Origin: Ruminococcus flavefaciens MA2007
Lineage (GTDB): Bacteria; Bacillota; Clostridia; Oscillospirales; Ruminococcaceae
Length of the DNA stretch: 64,000 nucleotides
Direction of reading: 5' to 3'
NCBI RefSeq assembly: GCF_000621845.1
Contig: NZ_JHXF01000006.1
Location: forward strand, 1-64,000
Shown: piece after piece, positions 11,263 through 53,555 of the stretch
How the letters are laid out: every line of letters begins with the position of its first letter
Position numbering within the stretch: position 1 is the stretch's first letter
Program-made: the position numbers and the translations under genes
Notes under the pieces: generated by a model
The model's input: the letters and a program-made list of their open reading frames with translations, nothing else
What the model was told of the DNA's origin: nothing
Database searches by the model: none

Positions 11263-12183
11263 TTATTTTCTTCTCCTTGTTGTTTTAGTTTTCTTTTTCT
11301 GGGGAGCAGGCTTCGGAGCTGTTTTTTCAGCGGCTTCGGGTGCTTCTGCTGACTTTTGCTCGGACACCGCCGCTTCTGCCTCCTCCATTTGGTAAAGCTG
11401 AGCGCAGAGCACATATTTTCCCGAAAAGGCAGTACCCTCTTTTTTATCAAAGAGCATTCTGCAAATATCGAGTACCGTGTTGTACTTCTTGGTATTTCTG
11501 GTATTGATGCATTTGCTGAACTCCGCGGCTATATTGAGGGGAGTACGGGCTTCTTCGAGATAGGAAAGCGACTCCTTGAGAATATGGGAGCTGTTTGGGT
11601 TTGCGGTGAGCTTTATGAGCTTTGCCGCCGCCGCTTTTATAATGCGGTTTTCGGCGCGGTCGGGAGTAAACACTTCATGCCGCACGAAAACGCGCTCGCG
11701 GTGAACGAGATTTCTGCGTATATTCTCGGAAAACAGGATAGTGCCCTGAACAGAGTTCAGATTTTCCTCGCGGCTGGCATAGGCGGAGAGAACGCCGCTT
11801 TTGATTATCTTCATTGTCTCTCCTGCAAACACGGAAACGAAGTACTCAAAAAAGTTCATATCGGGATCGAAGCTCATGGGACGGAATTCGTATCCGCACC
11901 TGTCGCAGAACTCCTCGCAGAGTGCTTTTCTTGCGCTTTCAGTGCCGCCCTCGGAATGGGGGAGTATCTCGATTAGAGTCCCGTCGGCAAGGCAGATAAA
12001 GCCGCAGTAGGAGCCTGCTGTGATATATTTATTTCCGTTTTTTTCAGCCGCAGAGACAGCTTTTCTGCTGTCAGCCCTGCAGACCTCCGCAAACTCGCCG
12101 AGCATCATGCCCAGCTCGCCGTTTTTTGCTGAAATGTCCGCTATCTTTTCGTTGGCTGATACGCAAATATGTCTGGTATACAT
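11263..12183 (-). CDS. mcrC: McrC-family restriction subunit lacking the nuclease domain
   Basis: 306 aa. The N-terminal beta-rich part and the family hallmark TPDRAENRIIKAAAAKLIKL (~170-190) identify the McrC family, which couples a PD-(D/E)xK nuclease to the McrB GTPase for cleavage of modified DNA. The match continues to VLDICRMLFDKKEGTAFSGKYVLCAQLYQM, where other family members continue into the nuclease domain. Here it instead runs into EEAEAAVSEQ and an Ala/Pro/Lys-rich tail ending KKKTKTTRRRK. No PD..(D/E)xK residues are seen. It follows mcrB by 15 bp and shares its promoter. It may be a cleavage-dead or repurposed variant. A frameshift was sought in the other minus-strand frames and not found. 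Confidence 0.8.
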   Translation of the reverse strand: MYTRHICVSANEKIADISAKNGELGMMLGEFAEVCRADSRKAVSAAEKNGNKYITAGSYCGFICLADGTLIEILPHSEGGTESARKALCEEFCDRCGYEFRPMSFDPDMNFFEYFVSVFAGETMKIIKSGVLSAYASREENLNSVQGTILFSENIRRNLVHRERVFVRHEVFTPDRAENRIIKAAAAKLIKLTANPNSSHILKESLSYLEEARTPLNIAAEFSKCINTRNTKKYNTVLDICRMLFDKKEGTAFSGKYVLCAQLYQMEEAEAAVSEQKSAEAPEAAEKTAPKPAPQKKKTKTTRRRK

Positions 12184-12198
12184 TATGTTCTCCGTTCA

Positions 12199-13959
12199 TC
12201 ATGAAATATCCTTGTATATCCTTATGAAGTGCTCCTTGCTCCAGTTTTCGGGCTTGCCGAGGCGGTAAAGTTTCTGTCCCGAATCGAATTTCTTGATGTA
12301 TTTCGGAGTAATGCATTCGATGAAGGTATTGTCATCGTTGAGCACCAGCTTTATTCTTTCATAGTCATCGAAGAAGTACTCCTGAAGCAGGGGGATTATC
12401 TTTGTAGCAAAGACCTCTTTCAGCTCGTCGAGAGTCTTTATACAGCCGTCGGCGTTCATGAAATAAGCATGACCGATAGCGTGTTCACGGTCGTAGTAAT
12501 ACTCGATACGCTCATTCAGCGCAGTGAGAAGCTCGCACAGGTCAACACCGCCGCATTCGCCCAGCAGTGAGGGCATAGGCATCATCTCAACGAAGTCAAA
12601 ACGTCTTCTCAGAGCGGTGTCCAGCATAGCGATAGAACGGTCGGCAGTATTCATAGTGCCCAGTATATACACATTTGACGGCACGAAGAAATCTGACTGC
12701 GAATAGGGCAGGATTACCGAGCTTCCGCGCTTTGTGTTCTCGATAAGGGTGATGAGCTCACCGAATATCCTTGAGATATTGCCTCGGTTTATCTCGTCTA
12801 TGATAGAAACGAACTTCATATGAGGGCTCTTTGAAGCCTTTTCGCAGAGAGACTTGAAAACGCCGTTGAACGGTCTGTAGATAACTGTGGTATCCTCATG
12901 CGCAACAGAGGTATCGTTGCCGTATCTGTCAACTACAACAGGGCGGATACCTTCAACAAATTCCTCATAGCTGTAAGCCTGATGGAAAGTAGTGAACTTT
13001 ATCTGACCTGAACTGGCATACTTTTCGTATCTTTCCTTTATAGCGGAATAAGGCTCGTCGTCGTTCTTTTTGCCCTCTATGAGCTGTACTGCGTACTTGA
13101 CAACATTATATGTCTTACCTGTGCCCGGAGGTCCGTACAGTATCTGATTCAGCGAAACTTCGGACTTTGAATGCTGACGGCGTGTAAGGTCAGTATCGGA
13201 CTTGTTTTCAGTCTCGGTTTTGAACTCAGCCAGCAGCTTCCATGACATGACATCGAATATCCTCATATTCTTGAACTTGAAATGAGAATTGCGATAATCT
13301 ATTATCTTTCGGCAGTTGAAGATATAATGGGAAATATCGTCAACATTCTTTATTCCTACACCTATCTCCCTGAAAACCATAGAATTGGTCAGGCTTTCGC
13401 CGAGTATCGGGAAAGTAGCAGGTTTAAGGCAGTGAAGTATCCTCGAAAAAGCGAAAACAGGCATTCCCGATTCCTTTATCAGGGGATTGAGCATTTTATG
13501 TGCAGTATCAAGAACCTTGCCGTCGTTTTCCAGTCCTGATATGTTTATGCACATCTTGAAAAAGAACTGTATCGCTTCGGGCTTTTCGGCAATAAGCGAG
13601 TTCTTGAACGTAACGGGTTTTGTAAGGAAGCTCATCTCGTTTTGGTCCACAAGGTGAGTGAACAGCATTCTTGCGCCCTTGTTCCATATTTTTTCGACAG
13701 TCTCATAAAGCATATGCTTGTCTATGTGGAGCAGGTGGCTGTTCTGGATATGCTGTTTCAGCTCGTTTTTATCGCCTGTCCAGAATCCCAGCGAGAGATA
13801 GTACAGCAGGTCGAGGTCCTTATAGTCTATGAGAGCGGTTTTTTTCAGCTTTGCGTAGCACTCTACGGCTTCGTACACCGAGCTGTAAGTTCCGTCAAAT
13901 TCTGTAGGTTGTATCTCGTTTTTTTGCTTGAGTTCTTCAATAATTTTTGTTTTCTCCAT
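12199..13959 (-). CDS. mcrB: McrB-family AAA+ GTPase
   Basis: 586-aa motor subunit of a McrBC-type modification-dependent restriction system. The C-terminal half carries Walker A GPPGTGKT (276-283), Walker [13 protein letters not shown] (383-394) and the McrB signature MNTADRS (436-442), followed by [11 protein letters not shown]. The N-terminal ~260 residues are the variable DNA-recognition part; no SRA, YTH or EVE signature was recognised, so the modified base it reads is unknown. It has its own promoter (TTGACA-17-TACAAT). mcrC follows after 15 bp. No methyltransferase gene lies nearby, as expected for a modification-dependent enzyme. Confidence 0.92.
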
Positions 13960-14722: not shown

Positions 14723-14723
14723 A

Positions 14724-14767
14724 TCTACGGAGCGTAGATTGACTTTTTCCCGCTGTCACGCTACAAT
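14724..14767 (+). promoter_or_regulatory. Promoter and perfect palindromic operator of the XRE-SOR gene
   Basis: TTGACT (14739-14744), 17-bp spacer, TACAAT (14762-14767). The 15-bp palindrome TCTACG-GAG-CGTAGA (14724-14738) abuts the -35. The same palindrome with a different centre lies upstream of the second XRE gene (53541-53555). Confidence 0.82.
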
Positions 14768-14803
14768 TAAAGCATAGAACAGACTACGGCAGAGGTGATT
14801 ATC

Positions 14804-15403
14804 ATGGATCAGATAAAAACAGGAGCCCTTATCAGACAGCTTCGACTGGATTCGGGAATGACGCAGAAGCAGCTTGCTGAGACACTATGCGTCAGCGACA
14901 AGGCGGTATCAAAATGGGAATGCGGCAACGGCTGTCCCGACGTATCCCTGCTTGCAGAGCTATCCGCTGTATTCGGTACGGACGTGCAGACTTTGCTGTC
15001 GGGCAGCATAAATAAAAATGAAAGCGAGAAAGGAAATATGAAAAAGCTGAAATTTTATGTGTGTAAGGAGTGCGGTAACATCATCACGGCAACCTCCGAG
15101 GCGGCTGTGACCTGCTGCGGAAACAAGCTCACTGCCCTTGAGCCTGTAAAAGCTGAGGGAGCTGATATGCTGAAAACCGAGGATTTAGGCGGCGAGTGGT
15201 TCATATCTTCGGACCATGAAATGAAAAAGGAGCACTATATCTCCTTTGTGGCGTATGTGACGGACAGCTCCGCCATGATGTTCAAGCAGTATCCCGAGTG
15301 GAATTTGCAGGTAACACTGCCCTTTTACCGTTCGGGAAGATTGATATGGTACTGCACACAGCACGGACTTTTCTATCAGGATATCAGGAGAACTAAGAAC
15401 TAA
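14804..15403 (+). CDS. XRE regulator fused to a superoxide-reductase-like domain
   Basis: 199 aa from ATG 14804 (AGAGGTG upstream; an in-frame GTG at 14795 overlaps that site). Residues ~5-60 are a Cro/C1-type helix-turn-helix (QKQLAETLCVSDKAVSKWECG). Residues 83-110 match the desulforedoxin-type metal knuckle (YVCKECGN..CCGNKL; Cys87, 90, 104, 105). The rest follows superoxide reductase: HEMKKEHYI (His138, His144) and CTQHGLF (Cys184, His187) correspond to iron ligands of its active centre. The usual EKHVP ligand segment is missing, so catalysis is doubtful and redox or metal sensing is more likely. It is preceded by its own promoter with a palindrome. Confidence 0.85.
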   Translation: MDQIKTGALIRQLRLDSGMTQKQLAETLCVSDKAVSKWECGNGCPDVSLLAELSAVFGTDVQTLLSGSINKNESEKGNMKKLKFYVCKECGNIITATSEAAVTCCGNKLTALEPVKAEGADMLKTEDLGGEWFISSDHEMKKEHYISFVAYVTDSSAMMFKQYPEWNLQVTLPFYRSGRLIWYCTQHGLFYQDIRRTKN

Positions 15404-52847: not shown

Positions 52848-53453
52848 TCAGTGAGTAAGTCTGCGCCTGCAGTATAAACGTTTGCCGCACTTGGGGCAGG
52901 TGAGCTTTCTCTTTGTGAGAGTATGAATGCCGAAAACATAGCTCTTTGCAGACGGTACGAAGCGTGTTCCGCAGTGCCTGCACTCATAAGTGCCTGCGCT
53001 CAGATCCGCCATGCAGGCAACAGCGATACCGCCTGCCATAACGATCACGGCTATTGCGATAAGCAGAATCCTCTGCCATGTTTCCATTTTCAGTGTGCCT
53101 GCCACTAATATGATCGTAACGCTTGCAAGTACTGCGATAGCGGCTGAAATAGCCGAAATGATTATTTTTCTTATGCTTTCCTCTTTTTCACGCATGATAT
53201 TCATAATATTTTCCTCCGCTTTCTTCTTGTAGTCCTCGTCGGGGATACGCTCGCCCGTGAGGAGCTCGTTTACATTGATACCTAACTTTTCACAGAGGGG
53301 GAGCATAAGGGACACCTCGGGCATACCCTTGCCTGTCTCCCACTTGGAAACTGTCTTATCACTGATAAGGAGTTCTTCGCCAAGCTGTTTCTGTGTAAGT
53401 CCTTTTTCTTTTCTCATCTGAGAGATGAATTTGCCGATCTTTACCTGATCCAT
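52848..53453 (-). CDS. XRE regulator with two membrane helices and a zinc ribbon
   Basis: 201 aa from ATG 53453 (AAAGGAGG). Residues ~5-65 are a Cro/C1 helix-turn-helix (GLTQKQLGEELLISDKTVSKWETGKGMPEVSLMLPL) clearly paralogous to that of the XRE-SOR gene at 14804. Then a charged linker, two transmembrane helices (~93-115, ~125-147) and a C-terminal zinc ribbon (YECRHCGTRF..LTCPKCGKRLYC). A membrane-tethered regulator that might sense metal, redox or envelope state. Upstream lies a 15-bp palindrome identical in its arms to the one at 14724. Confidence 0.88.
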   Translation of the reverse strand: MDQVKIGKFISQMRKEKGLTQKQLGEELLISDKTVSKWETGKGMPEVSLMLPLCEKLGINVNELLTGERIPDEDYKKKAEENIMNIMREKEESIRKIIISAISAAIAVLASVTIILVAGTLKMETWQRILLIAIAVIVMAGGIAVACMADLSAGTYECRHCGTRFVPSAKSYVFGIHTLTKRKLTCPKCGKRLYCRRRLTH

Positions 53454-53483: not shown

Positions 53484-53555
53484 TCATGCCGCGGAGAAAA
53501 AGTACACCCATGGGGCGTAGAATTACGGTATCAAGCGGAGTCTACGCTTCGTAGA
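53484..53555 (-). promoter_or_regulatory. Promoter region and palindromic operator of the second XRE gene
   Basis: Perfect palindrome TCTACG-CTT-CGTAGA (53541-53555). A related imperfect site GCGTAGAATTACGG lies at 53515-53528. A minus-strand promoter TGTACT-17-TACACT fits just downstream; its spacer begins TTTTCTCC, close to the TTTTCCC of the XRE-SOR promoter. Confidence 0.7.

Follow-up and report, generated by a model that had tools for sequence, protein, structure and literature searches.

SoxR, a member of the MerR family, controls a regulon of redox/xenobiotic type with flavin reductases and exporters, and PerR belongs to the Fur family. Part of a published account places OseR, an oxidative-stress regulator of C. 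difficile, in the Spx family, and describes the centres of superoxide reductases (SORs) as four equatorial histidines with an axial cysteine, a Cys4 site being the second centre (PMC11980386). TrtA of T. denticola is, in the section of its report covered here, an XRE protein of 104 residues, the rest of which was left unmatched by its authors (PMC12724145). The HTH-Dx-SOR class was named in 2011 in SORGOdb, where it made up 19 of 325 proteins, and the parts of that account covered here give no operator, target or function for it (PMC3116461). Among the matches listed, no functional study of HTH-Dx-SOR was found in the open-access literature.

We describe here a protein of this kind encoded in the window, that is, in the whole analysed stretch of 64,000 nucleotides from Ruminococcus flavefaciens MA2007. 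Like the HTH-Dx-SOR proteins, as these are presented in the covered parts of SORGOdb, it joins an HTH, a desulforedoxin module and an SOR module in one chain (PMC3116461), the N-terminal HTH standing ahead of the Dx-SOR module. Unlike the SORGOdb class, the clade of the window protein has Asp or Glu in place of the first SOR histidine and often Cys in place of the last. The architecture was known already; what is added here is a ligand-poor clade, a candidate operator and a candidate set of target genes. The reading frame begins with ATG at 14804, its stop codon ends at 15403, and 199 residues are encoded. The features of the gene and its product are as follows.

14791-14798, plus strand: ribosome-binding site AGAGGTGA (sequence)
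14804-15403, plus strand: gene of the HTH-Dx-SOR regulator, 199 residues (open reading frame, Pfam, AlphaFold2, structure match)
14831-14989, plus strand: HTH_3 domain, residues 10-62 (Pfam)
15062-15118, plus strand: desulforedoxin-like Cys4 site, C87, C90, C104 and C105 (alignment)
15164-15166, plus strand: Asp121, in the place of the first SOR histidine (hhalign, alignment)
15215-15235, plus strand: His138 to His144 (HEMKKEH) of the SOR-like centre (H138 in 81 of 81 near-relative rows, H144 in 79 of 81)
15353-15364, plus strand: Cys184-x2-His187 of the SOR-like centre (alignment)

The N-terminal part matches HTH_3 of Pfam with 45.2 bits against a cut-off of 23, which places it among XRE/Cro-C1 domains, while no MerR model is present among the 11 Pfam matches of the protein up to E=1. 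In the AlphaFold2 model (mean pLDDT 88.7, pTM 0.59, built on an alignment of 80 sequences) residues 1-70 resemble Cro/C1-type DNA-binding domains in the structure match; the VIA-align result covers the families listed. The C-terminal part scores below the cut-offs of the Pfam models Desulfoferrod_N (15.8 bits, residues 80-109) and Desulfoferrodox (14.6 bits, residues 137-190), and its 21.3 bits for the NCBIfam desulfoferrodoxin model TIGR00320 fall short of that model's cut-off, 146.9. Still, a sequence search of the PDB returned desulfoferrodoxins (1dfx, E=0.0022), residues 78-193 of the model superimpose on 1y07, the Dx-SOR of Treponema pallidum (Z=13.9, rmsd 2.1 over 114 residues), and the model matches 1dfx with Z=13.2. 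Moreover, a profile of 29 family members (A3) aligned by hhalign with a profile of 19 canonical Dx-SORs (A4) gave a probability of 99.7% and E=4.6e-27. As the PDB sequence search, the model and the profile comparison all point the same way, we consider the homology to Dx-SOR to be beyond chance despite the sub-cut-off Pfam scores. The initial annotation, made from the sequence alone, had seen here a transcription regulator fused to a degenerate SOR; this is confirmed, the protein consisting of an HTH, a desulforedoxin-like Cys4 site and an SOR fold.

The hhalign alignment pairs the four desulforedoxin cysteines with C87, C90, C104 and C105, the last three SOR histidines with H138, H144 and H187, and the axial cysteine with C184, so that the desulforedoxin-type Cys4 site and the SOR motifs noticed earlier fall on canonical ligands. 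The segment of the first histidine (EKHVP), reported to be absent, is indeed missing: the canonical E-K-H, present together with a complete ligand set in 21 of 21 canonical rows, aligns with G119-A120-D121. The four histidines and one cysteine that define SOR centre II are therefore incomplete, Asp121 replacing the first histidine, and Gly119-Ala120 stand where the EKH loop has its Glu-Lys pair. With the Dx-SORs of known structure (1dfx, 1y07, 2ji1) the window protein shares the fold, the Cys4 site and the HxxxxxH and CxxH motifs; it differs from them in its additional HTH, in G-A-D for E-K-H, and in the loop of its otherwise intact CxxC...CC site, which spans x13 instead of the published x15. 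Because none of the canonical residues His121, Glu119 and Lys120 is present, the defining ligands support the earlier view that the protein is probably not a standard superoxide reductase enzyme.

Upstream of the gene the following elements can be recognised.

14723-14739, palindrome without assigned strand: ATCTACG-GAG-CGTAGAT, proposed operator, centre at 14731 (upstream conservation)
14739-14744, plus strand: -35 box TTGACT, sharing one base with the operator (sequence)
14762-14767, plus strand: -10 box TACAAT (full-pattern match 14724-14767)

The two boxes are separated by 17 bases. Across the family, TCTACG-N3-CGTNG abutting the -35 box emerges as a conserved candidate operator, new in this work. 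A relaxed operator-promoter pattern precedes 98 of 140 family genes and TCTACG-N3-CGT occurs in 78 of the 140 upstream regions, each against 0 in 20 shuffled sets, although these counts are not independent, since the regions are related to one another. Not included in them are L071, loci whose upstream sequence is too short, and seven genes in which no HTH stands in frame (L128, L139, L107, L146, L113, L114 and L118). The spacer measures 17 bases in 95 of the 98 promoters, and the -10 box is exactly TATAAT in 50. Of the 42 regions in which the relaxed pattern is missing, 32 miss the operator part, and some of the 42 genes sit inside operons. The motif reaches from Ruminococcus to Propionispora, and Clostridium asparagiforme has it in a diverged form.

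How specific the motif is can be judged from genome scans with a strict pattern, TCTACGNNNCGTNNNTTGN{19,21}TANNNT, in sets of 398 (phylum), 148 (family) and 394 (order) genomes. It was found in 13 of the 398 phylum genomes, all 13 being among the 31 that carry an HTH-Dx-SOR gene, and in 19 of the 148 family genomes, 18 of them among the 40 carriers. The co-occurrence of site and gene is significant (Fisher p 2.5e-16 for the phylum, 2.9e-11 for the family), but it chiefly reflects the rarity of the motif elsewhere, because most sites are the regulator gene's own promoter. Presence of the gene was defined as an HTH-type match above 70 bits, a line separating HTH-type from canonical matches and placed where no match fell, from 63 to 77 bits; the match of G151, at 77.6 bits, is partial, and the weak matches are those among the matches listed. 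In the single exception, G415, what follows the site is an HTH frame cut short close to a contig end, much like the interrupted copies described below. The reversed control pattern occurred in 2 phylum, 0 family and 3 of 394 order genomes, against 13, 19 and 33 for the real one. When 3 mismatches were allowed, background became evident: the motif was found in 50 of 148 genomes, compared to about 27 in the reversed control. CRISPR-like repeats resembling the motif in G452 and G520 were discounted.

Taken together, the family, phylum and order searches yielded 67 distinct sites, 65 of them with sequence (those without a locus lie on G873:C14 and G681:C12). The HTH-Dx-SOR gene follows 39 of the 65 sites, and an interrupted copy of it 8. 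Other genes recur: an FMN-reductase-fold flavoprotein (5 sites), an MFS transporter (2), a GIY/MoxR-like operon (4) and a CatA-like gene (2). One further site precedes a paralogue composed of an HTH, a membrane part and a zinc ribbon, one an ORF followed by the regulator at 1.2 kb, and 3 have no assigned gene, one of these lying at a contig end. The order-set genomes with FMN-reductase or CatA-like sites are G703, G873, G884, G829 and G894. In this tally L233, whose second gene is an FMN reductase, and L239, whose HTH is out of frame, are self sites, and G542 enters with a single site. The gene second to the regulator is an FMN reductase in L212, L233 and L235 and CatA-like in L259, and in L254 the FMN reductase has another CatA-like gene behind it. 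For the flavoproteins the matching models are FMN_red and Flavodoxin_2; the transporter matches MFS_1, with Mef models below cut-off, and the acetyltransferase matches PF00302 above and the CatA model below cut-off, the transporter and acetyltransferase sequences being partial. The AAA protein of the GIY/MoxR-like operon matches AAA_5, and the small protein, for which Pfam gave no match, resembles a model of group I intron endonucleases weakly and below its cut-off. "GIY" for the small protein and "MoxR" for the AAA protein are therefore tentative names.

Six genomes (G054, G352, G386, G368, G003 and G542) have MFS and/or GIY/MoxR-like genes behind a strict site, with the regulator downstream on the same strand; a PhzF-family gene follows the regulator in G386 and a small ORF in G542. 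A run of GIY-like, uncharacterised and AAA ATPase genes, sometimes led by an MFS gene, stands ahead of the regulator in L284-L288 and L138. Within the window's clade, FMNa forms an operon with the regulator in G509 (L212) and lies behind its own near-consensus site in G467 (L196); an FMN-reductase gene in G525 (L197) has a good operator half and a -10 box that is not clear, and was left uncounted. A conserved candidate operator at the protein's own promoter, recurring before other genes, makes the regulator function assumed in the initial annotation well supported, as far as sequence comparison can tell.

Gene neighbourhood as a guide to function was considered and rejected. Regulon-type genes adjoin the regulator in 13 of 143 loci, no neighbour family occurs in more than 16 of the 105 anchored loci (121 sequences given), and the most recurrent one, found in those 16, is a broad paralogous family that includes a window gene. 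A general link to canonical SOR was likewise dropped, being limited to one genome, G271. There (L283), the HTH-Dx-SOR gene shares its strand with rubrerythrin, canonical SOR and hemerythrin genes ahead of it and with two more genes.

The regulator gene is broken after its SKWE[RT] codons in 8 of the 65 operator loci (L204, L205, L245, L246, L247, L248, L251 and L257). In the long stretches L290, L292 and L293 the remaining part of the gene follows after a gap of 7 to 14 kb; a large serine recombinase with Resolvase and Recombinase domains stands immediately ahead of it in L290 and L293. In L289 it was not found within 19.8 kb. The regulator gene has the look of a site at which integrative elements attach. 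A group II intron as the cause of the interruptions was rejected, there being no Rfam match at the gathering score. Plasmid-collection records H1 and H2 encode the whole protein (48.7% and 43.9% identical), and two unannotated records of a phage collection, H3 (MT835563.1) and H4 (MT839617.1), contain its Dx-SOR part with 40.5% and 33.6% identity. In the window itself, two adjoining genes appear to form a modification-dependent restriction pair.

11266-12183, minus strand: McrBC-component gene (PF10117, 133.6 bits)
12199-13956, minus strand: AAA_5 ATPase gene (Pfam)

In the window's own genome, only the regulator's own promoter matches the full operator-promoter pattern and a second such site was not found; therefore, only autoregulation is predicted there. 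With at most 1 mismatch, a looser pattern gave 13 sites, exact ones included, a modest excess over the 5 of the reversed control. Two sites with 3 mismatches (L181, L182) were examined as extra operators and set aside. Further perfect palindromes occur upstream of a paralogue and, three times, in a repeat. The latter, of about 110 bases with CTACGAAGCGTAG, is found at C1:43953, C4:162370 and C4:173986 of G000 (L277, L280 and L281), and its three perfect palindromes were rejected as extra sites, all lying within the shared repeated sequence. The paralogue, at 52848-53453 on the minus strand, combines an HTH with a probable membrane segment and a C-terminus resembling a zinc ribbon, and has CTACG-N3-CGTAG upstream at 53542-53554. 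Since it has the same palindrome, and its homologue L268 the full operator-promoter pattern, some of the sites may belong to paralogues. The best FMNa homologue in this genome is 35% identical over residues 3-125. With neither a canonical SOR nor a second Dx-SOR returned by profile and Pfam searches of this genome, the regulator does not seem to be accessory to a canonical SOR here.

The conservation of the two metal sites was assessed in an alignment of 81 near-relative rows (the window and 80 kept of 109 relatives from the contig scan), ranging from Ruminococcus and other Oscillospiraceae to Propionispora and other Negativicutes. The Cys4 cysteines are invariant in all 81 rows. H138 (81 of 81), H144 (79 of 81) and C184 (80 of 81) are nearly so, position 187 is Cys in 41, His in 37 and Arg, Glu or a gap in one each, and position 121 is Glu in 58, Asp in 14, His in 5 (L080, L084, L085, L087 and L088), Ala in 3 and Gln in 1. 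A broader set of 150 HTH-type rows combines the 81 with 70 rows from the genome search, the window's own row being merged and some species appearing twice. Here Cys4 reads CCCC in 145 rows and CCCH in 4, one row being a fragment; in the CCCH members (L114, L115, L116 and L156) a histidine replaces the fourth desulforedoxin cysteine. A complete SOR ligand set of four histidines and a cysteine is found in 40 of the 150, and His121 in 47, of which 22 have Glu119 and 1 has Lys120. Cys184 is lost in 7 (L053, L129, L131, L132, L133, L136 and L151), and all 7 also lack His144 and His121 and retain Cys4; an independent-pairs test of the joint loss at 184 and 144 gave 4 pairs in the same direction, too few for significance. 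In a tree of 168 rows, from which L071, L060 and L118 are omitted, canonical and HTH types split with full SH-aLRT support and the window falls in the starred 66-row clade without His121, although many other forks are poorly supported. Parsimony places 6 changes at His121, 21 at position 187 and 5 at Cys184. On these alignments, Cys4 is the constant part of the family and the SOR-like site a variable second one, apparently ligand-capable in most members and lost several times. As SOR ligands vary or vanish while Cys4 persists in 145 of 150 rows, the SOR-like iron site does not seem indispensable, which corrects the weight given to it in the initial annotation.

We thus lean, by a modest degree, towards the following scenario. 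The protein would be an autorepressor whose HTH binds the palindrome CTACG-GAG-CGTAG beside the -35 box and shuts its own promoter, until a redox or xenobiotic signal, read by the C-terminal metal-binding part, releases it from the operator. Because the operator contacts the -35 box and the promoters are near consensus, binding would probably result in repression. In view of the ligands and the kind of targets, we infer iron as the metal, and the signal would most likely act by oxidising the Cys4 iron or removing it, the response being adjusted by the SOR-like site. As the operator precedes FMN-reductase, Mef-like and CatA-like genes in relatives, a compound that is redox-active or toxic, or the oxidative stress arising from it, is the probable signal. 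Speaking against this scenario are the 42 upstream regions without the relaxed pattern, the sites that may belong to paralogues, the single full site and modest excess of near-sites in the window's own genome, and the low number of loci (13 of 143) in which regulon-type genes adjoin the regulator.

Rather unlikely, to our judgement, is a structural zinc in Cys4 with a drug or metabolite bound by the SOR-like fold, so that sensing would need no redox metal. The constancy of Cys4, as expected of a structural site, the dispensable SOR centre and the CatA-like and Mef-like genes among the targets would all suit such a protein. However, an adjacent CysCys pair, as present here, is a hallmark of desulforedoxin, and the FMN-reductase targets and the 40 complete SOR ligand sets favour redox chemistry.

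The initial annotation had favoured the SOR-like centre itself as a direct superoxide, oxygen or iron switch, and had asked for conservation of the remaining ligands, Cys184 and His187 in particular. Among near relatives this holds for H138, H144 and C184 and fails for H187; 77 of the 81 rows carry His, Glu or Asp at position 121 and 78 carry His or Cys at position 187, and the loss of H144 in all 7 rows without C184 is what a single site predicts. On the other hand, the 7 members that lost both residues keep Cys4, four of them (L053, L132, L136 and L151) with a clear operator, and the regulon links occur across different ligand sets. The claim is therefore weakened and we now regard it as improbable.

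Activation instead of repression is more doubtful still: the operator centre at about -43 and its fixed position relative to the promoter fit a class II-like activator bound beside the -35 box, but many of the promoters are near consensus (TTGAC, 17 bases, TATAAT), and such promoters seldom require an activator. Finally, a self-regulated enzyme, which would still reduce superoxide or another oxidant in an amount set by its HTH, is very improbable, for although the window's genome (98% complete) gave no canonical SOR or second Dx-SOR in profile and Pfam searches and has only the self-operator, and although 47 of 150 members keep His121, the window protein lacks all three E-K-H residues, Glu119 and Lys120 are found in 22 and 1 of those 47, and relatives have separate targets.

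Returning to the autorepressor, a broader reading is possible rather than probable: HTH-Dx-SOR might be a widespread clostridial counterpart of SoxR, with a mononuclear Cys4-iron switch and an assisting, SOR-derived second site open to remodelling or loss; acting at CTACG-N3-CGTAG, it would repress its own gene as well as flavin-reductase, CatA-like and Mef-like efflux genes. If the mechanism is right, an antioxidant enzyme would have become a sensor, and clostridia of the gut and rumen might in many cases have a regulator family of their own for sensing compounds that are redox-active or toxic. In any case, the HTH-Dx-SOR class gains candidates for its operator and its targets, together with a mechanism that can be tested. 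The likeness to SoxR would lie in the kind of targets, flavin reductases and exporters, and concerns the way of working only, as the window protein has neither a MerR-type HTH nor a cysteine-bound [2Fe-2S] cluster; it has an XRE-type HTH, a mononuclear Cys4 site with an SOR fold instead of [2Fe-2S], and a promoter whose spacer is 17 bases and not of the long MerR type. PerR and OseR of C. difficile, as far as the covered part of their description goes (PMC11980386), are clostridial oxidative-stress regulators too, with domains unrelated to those of HTH-Dx-SOR.
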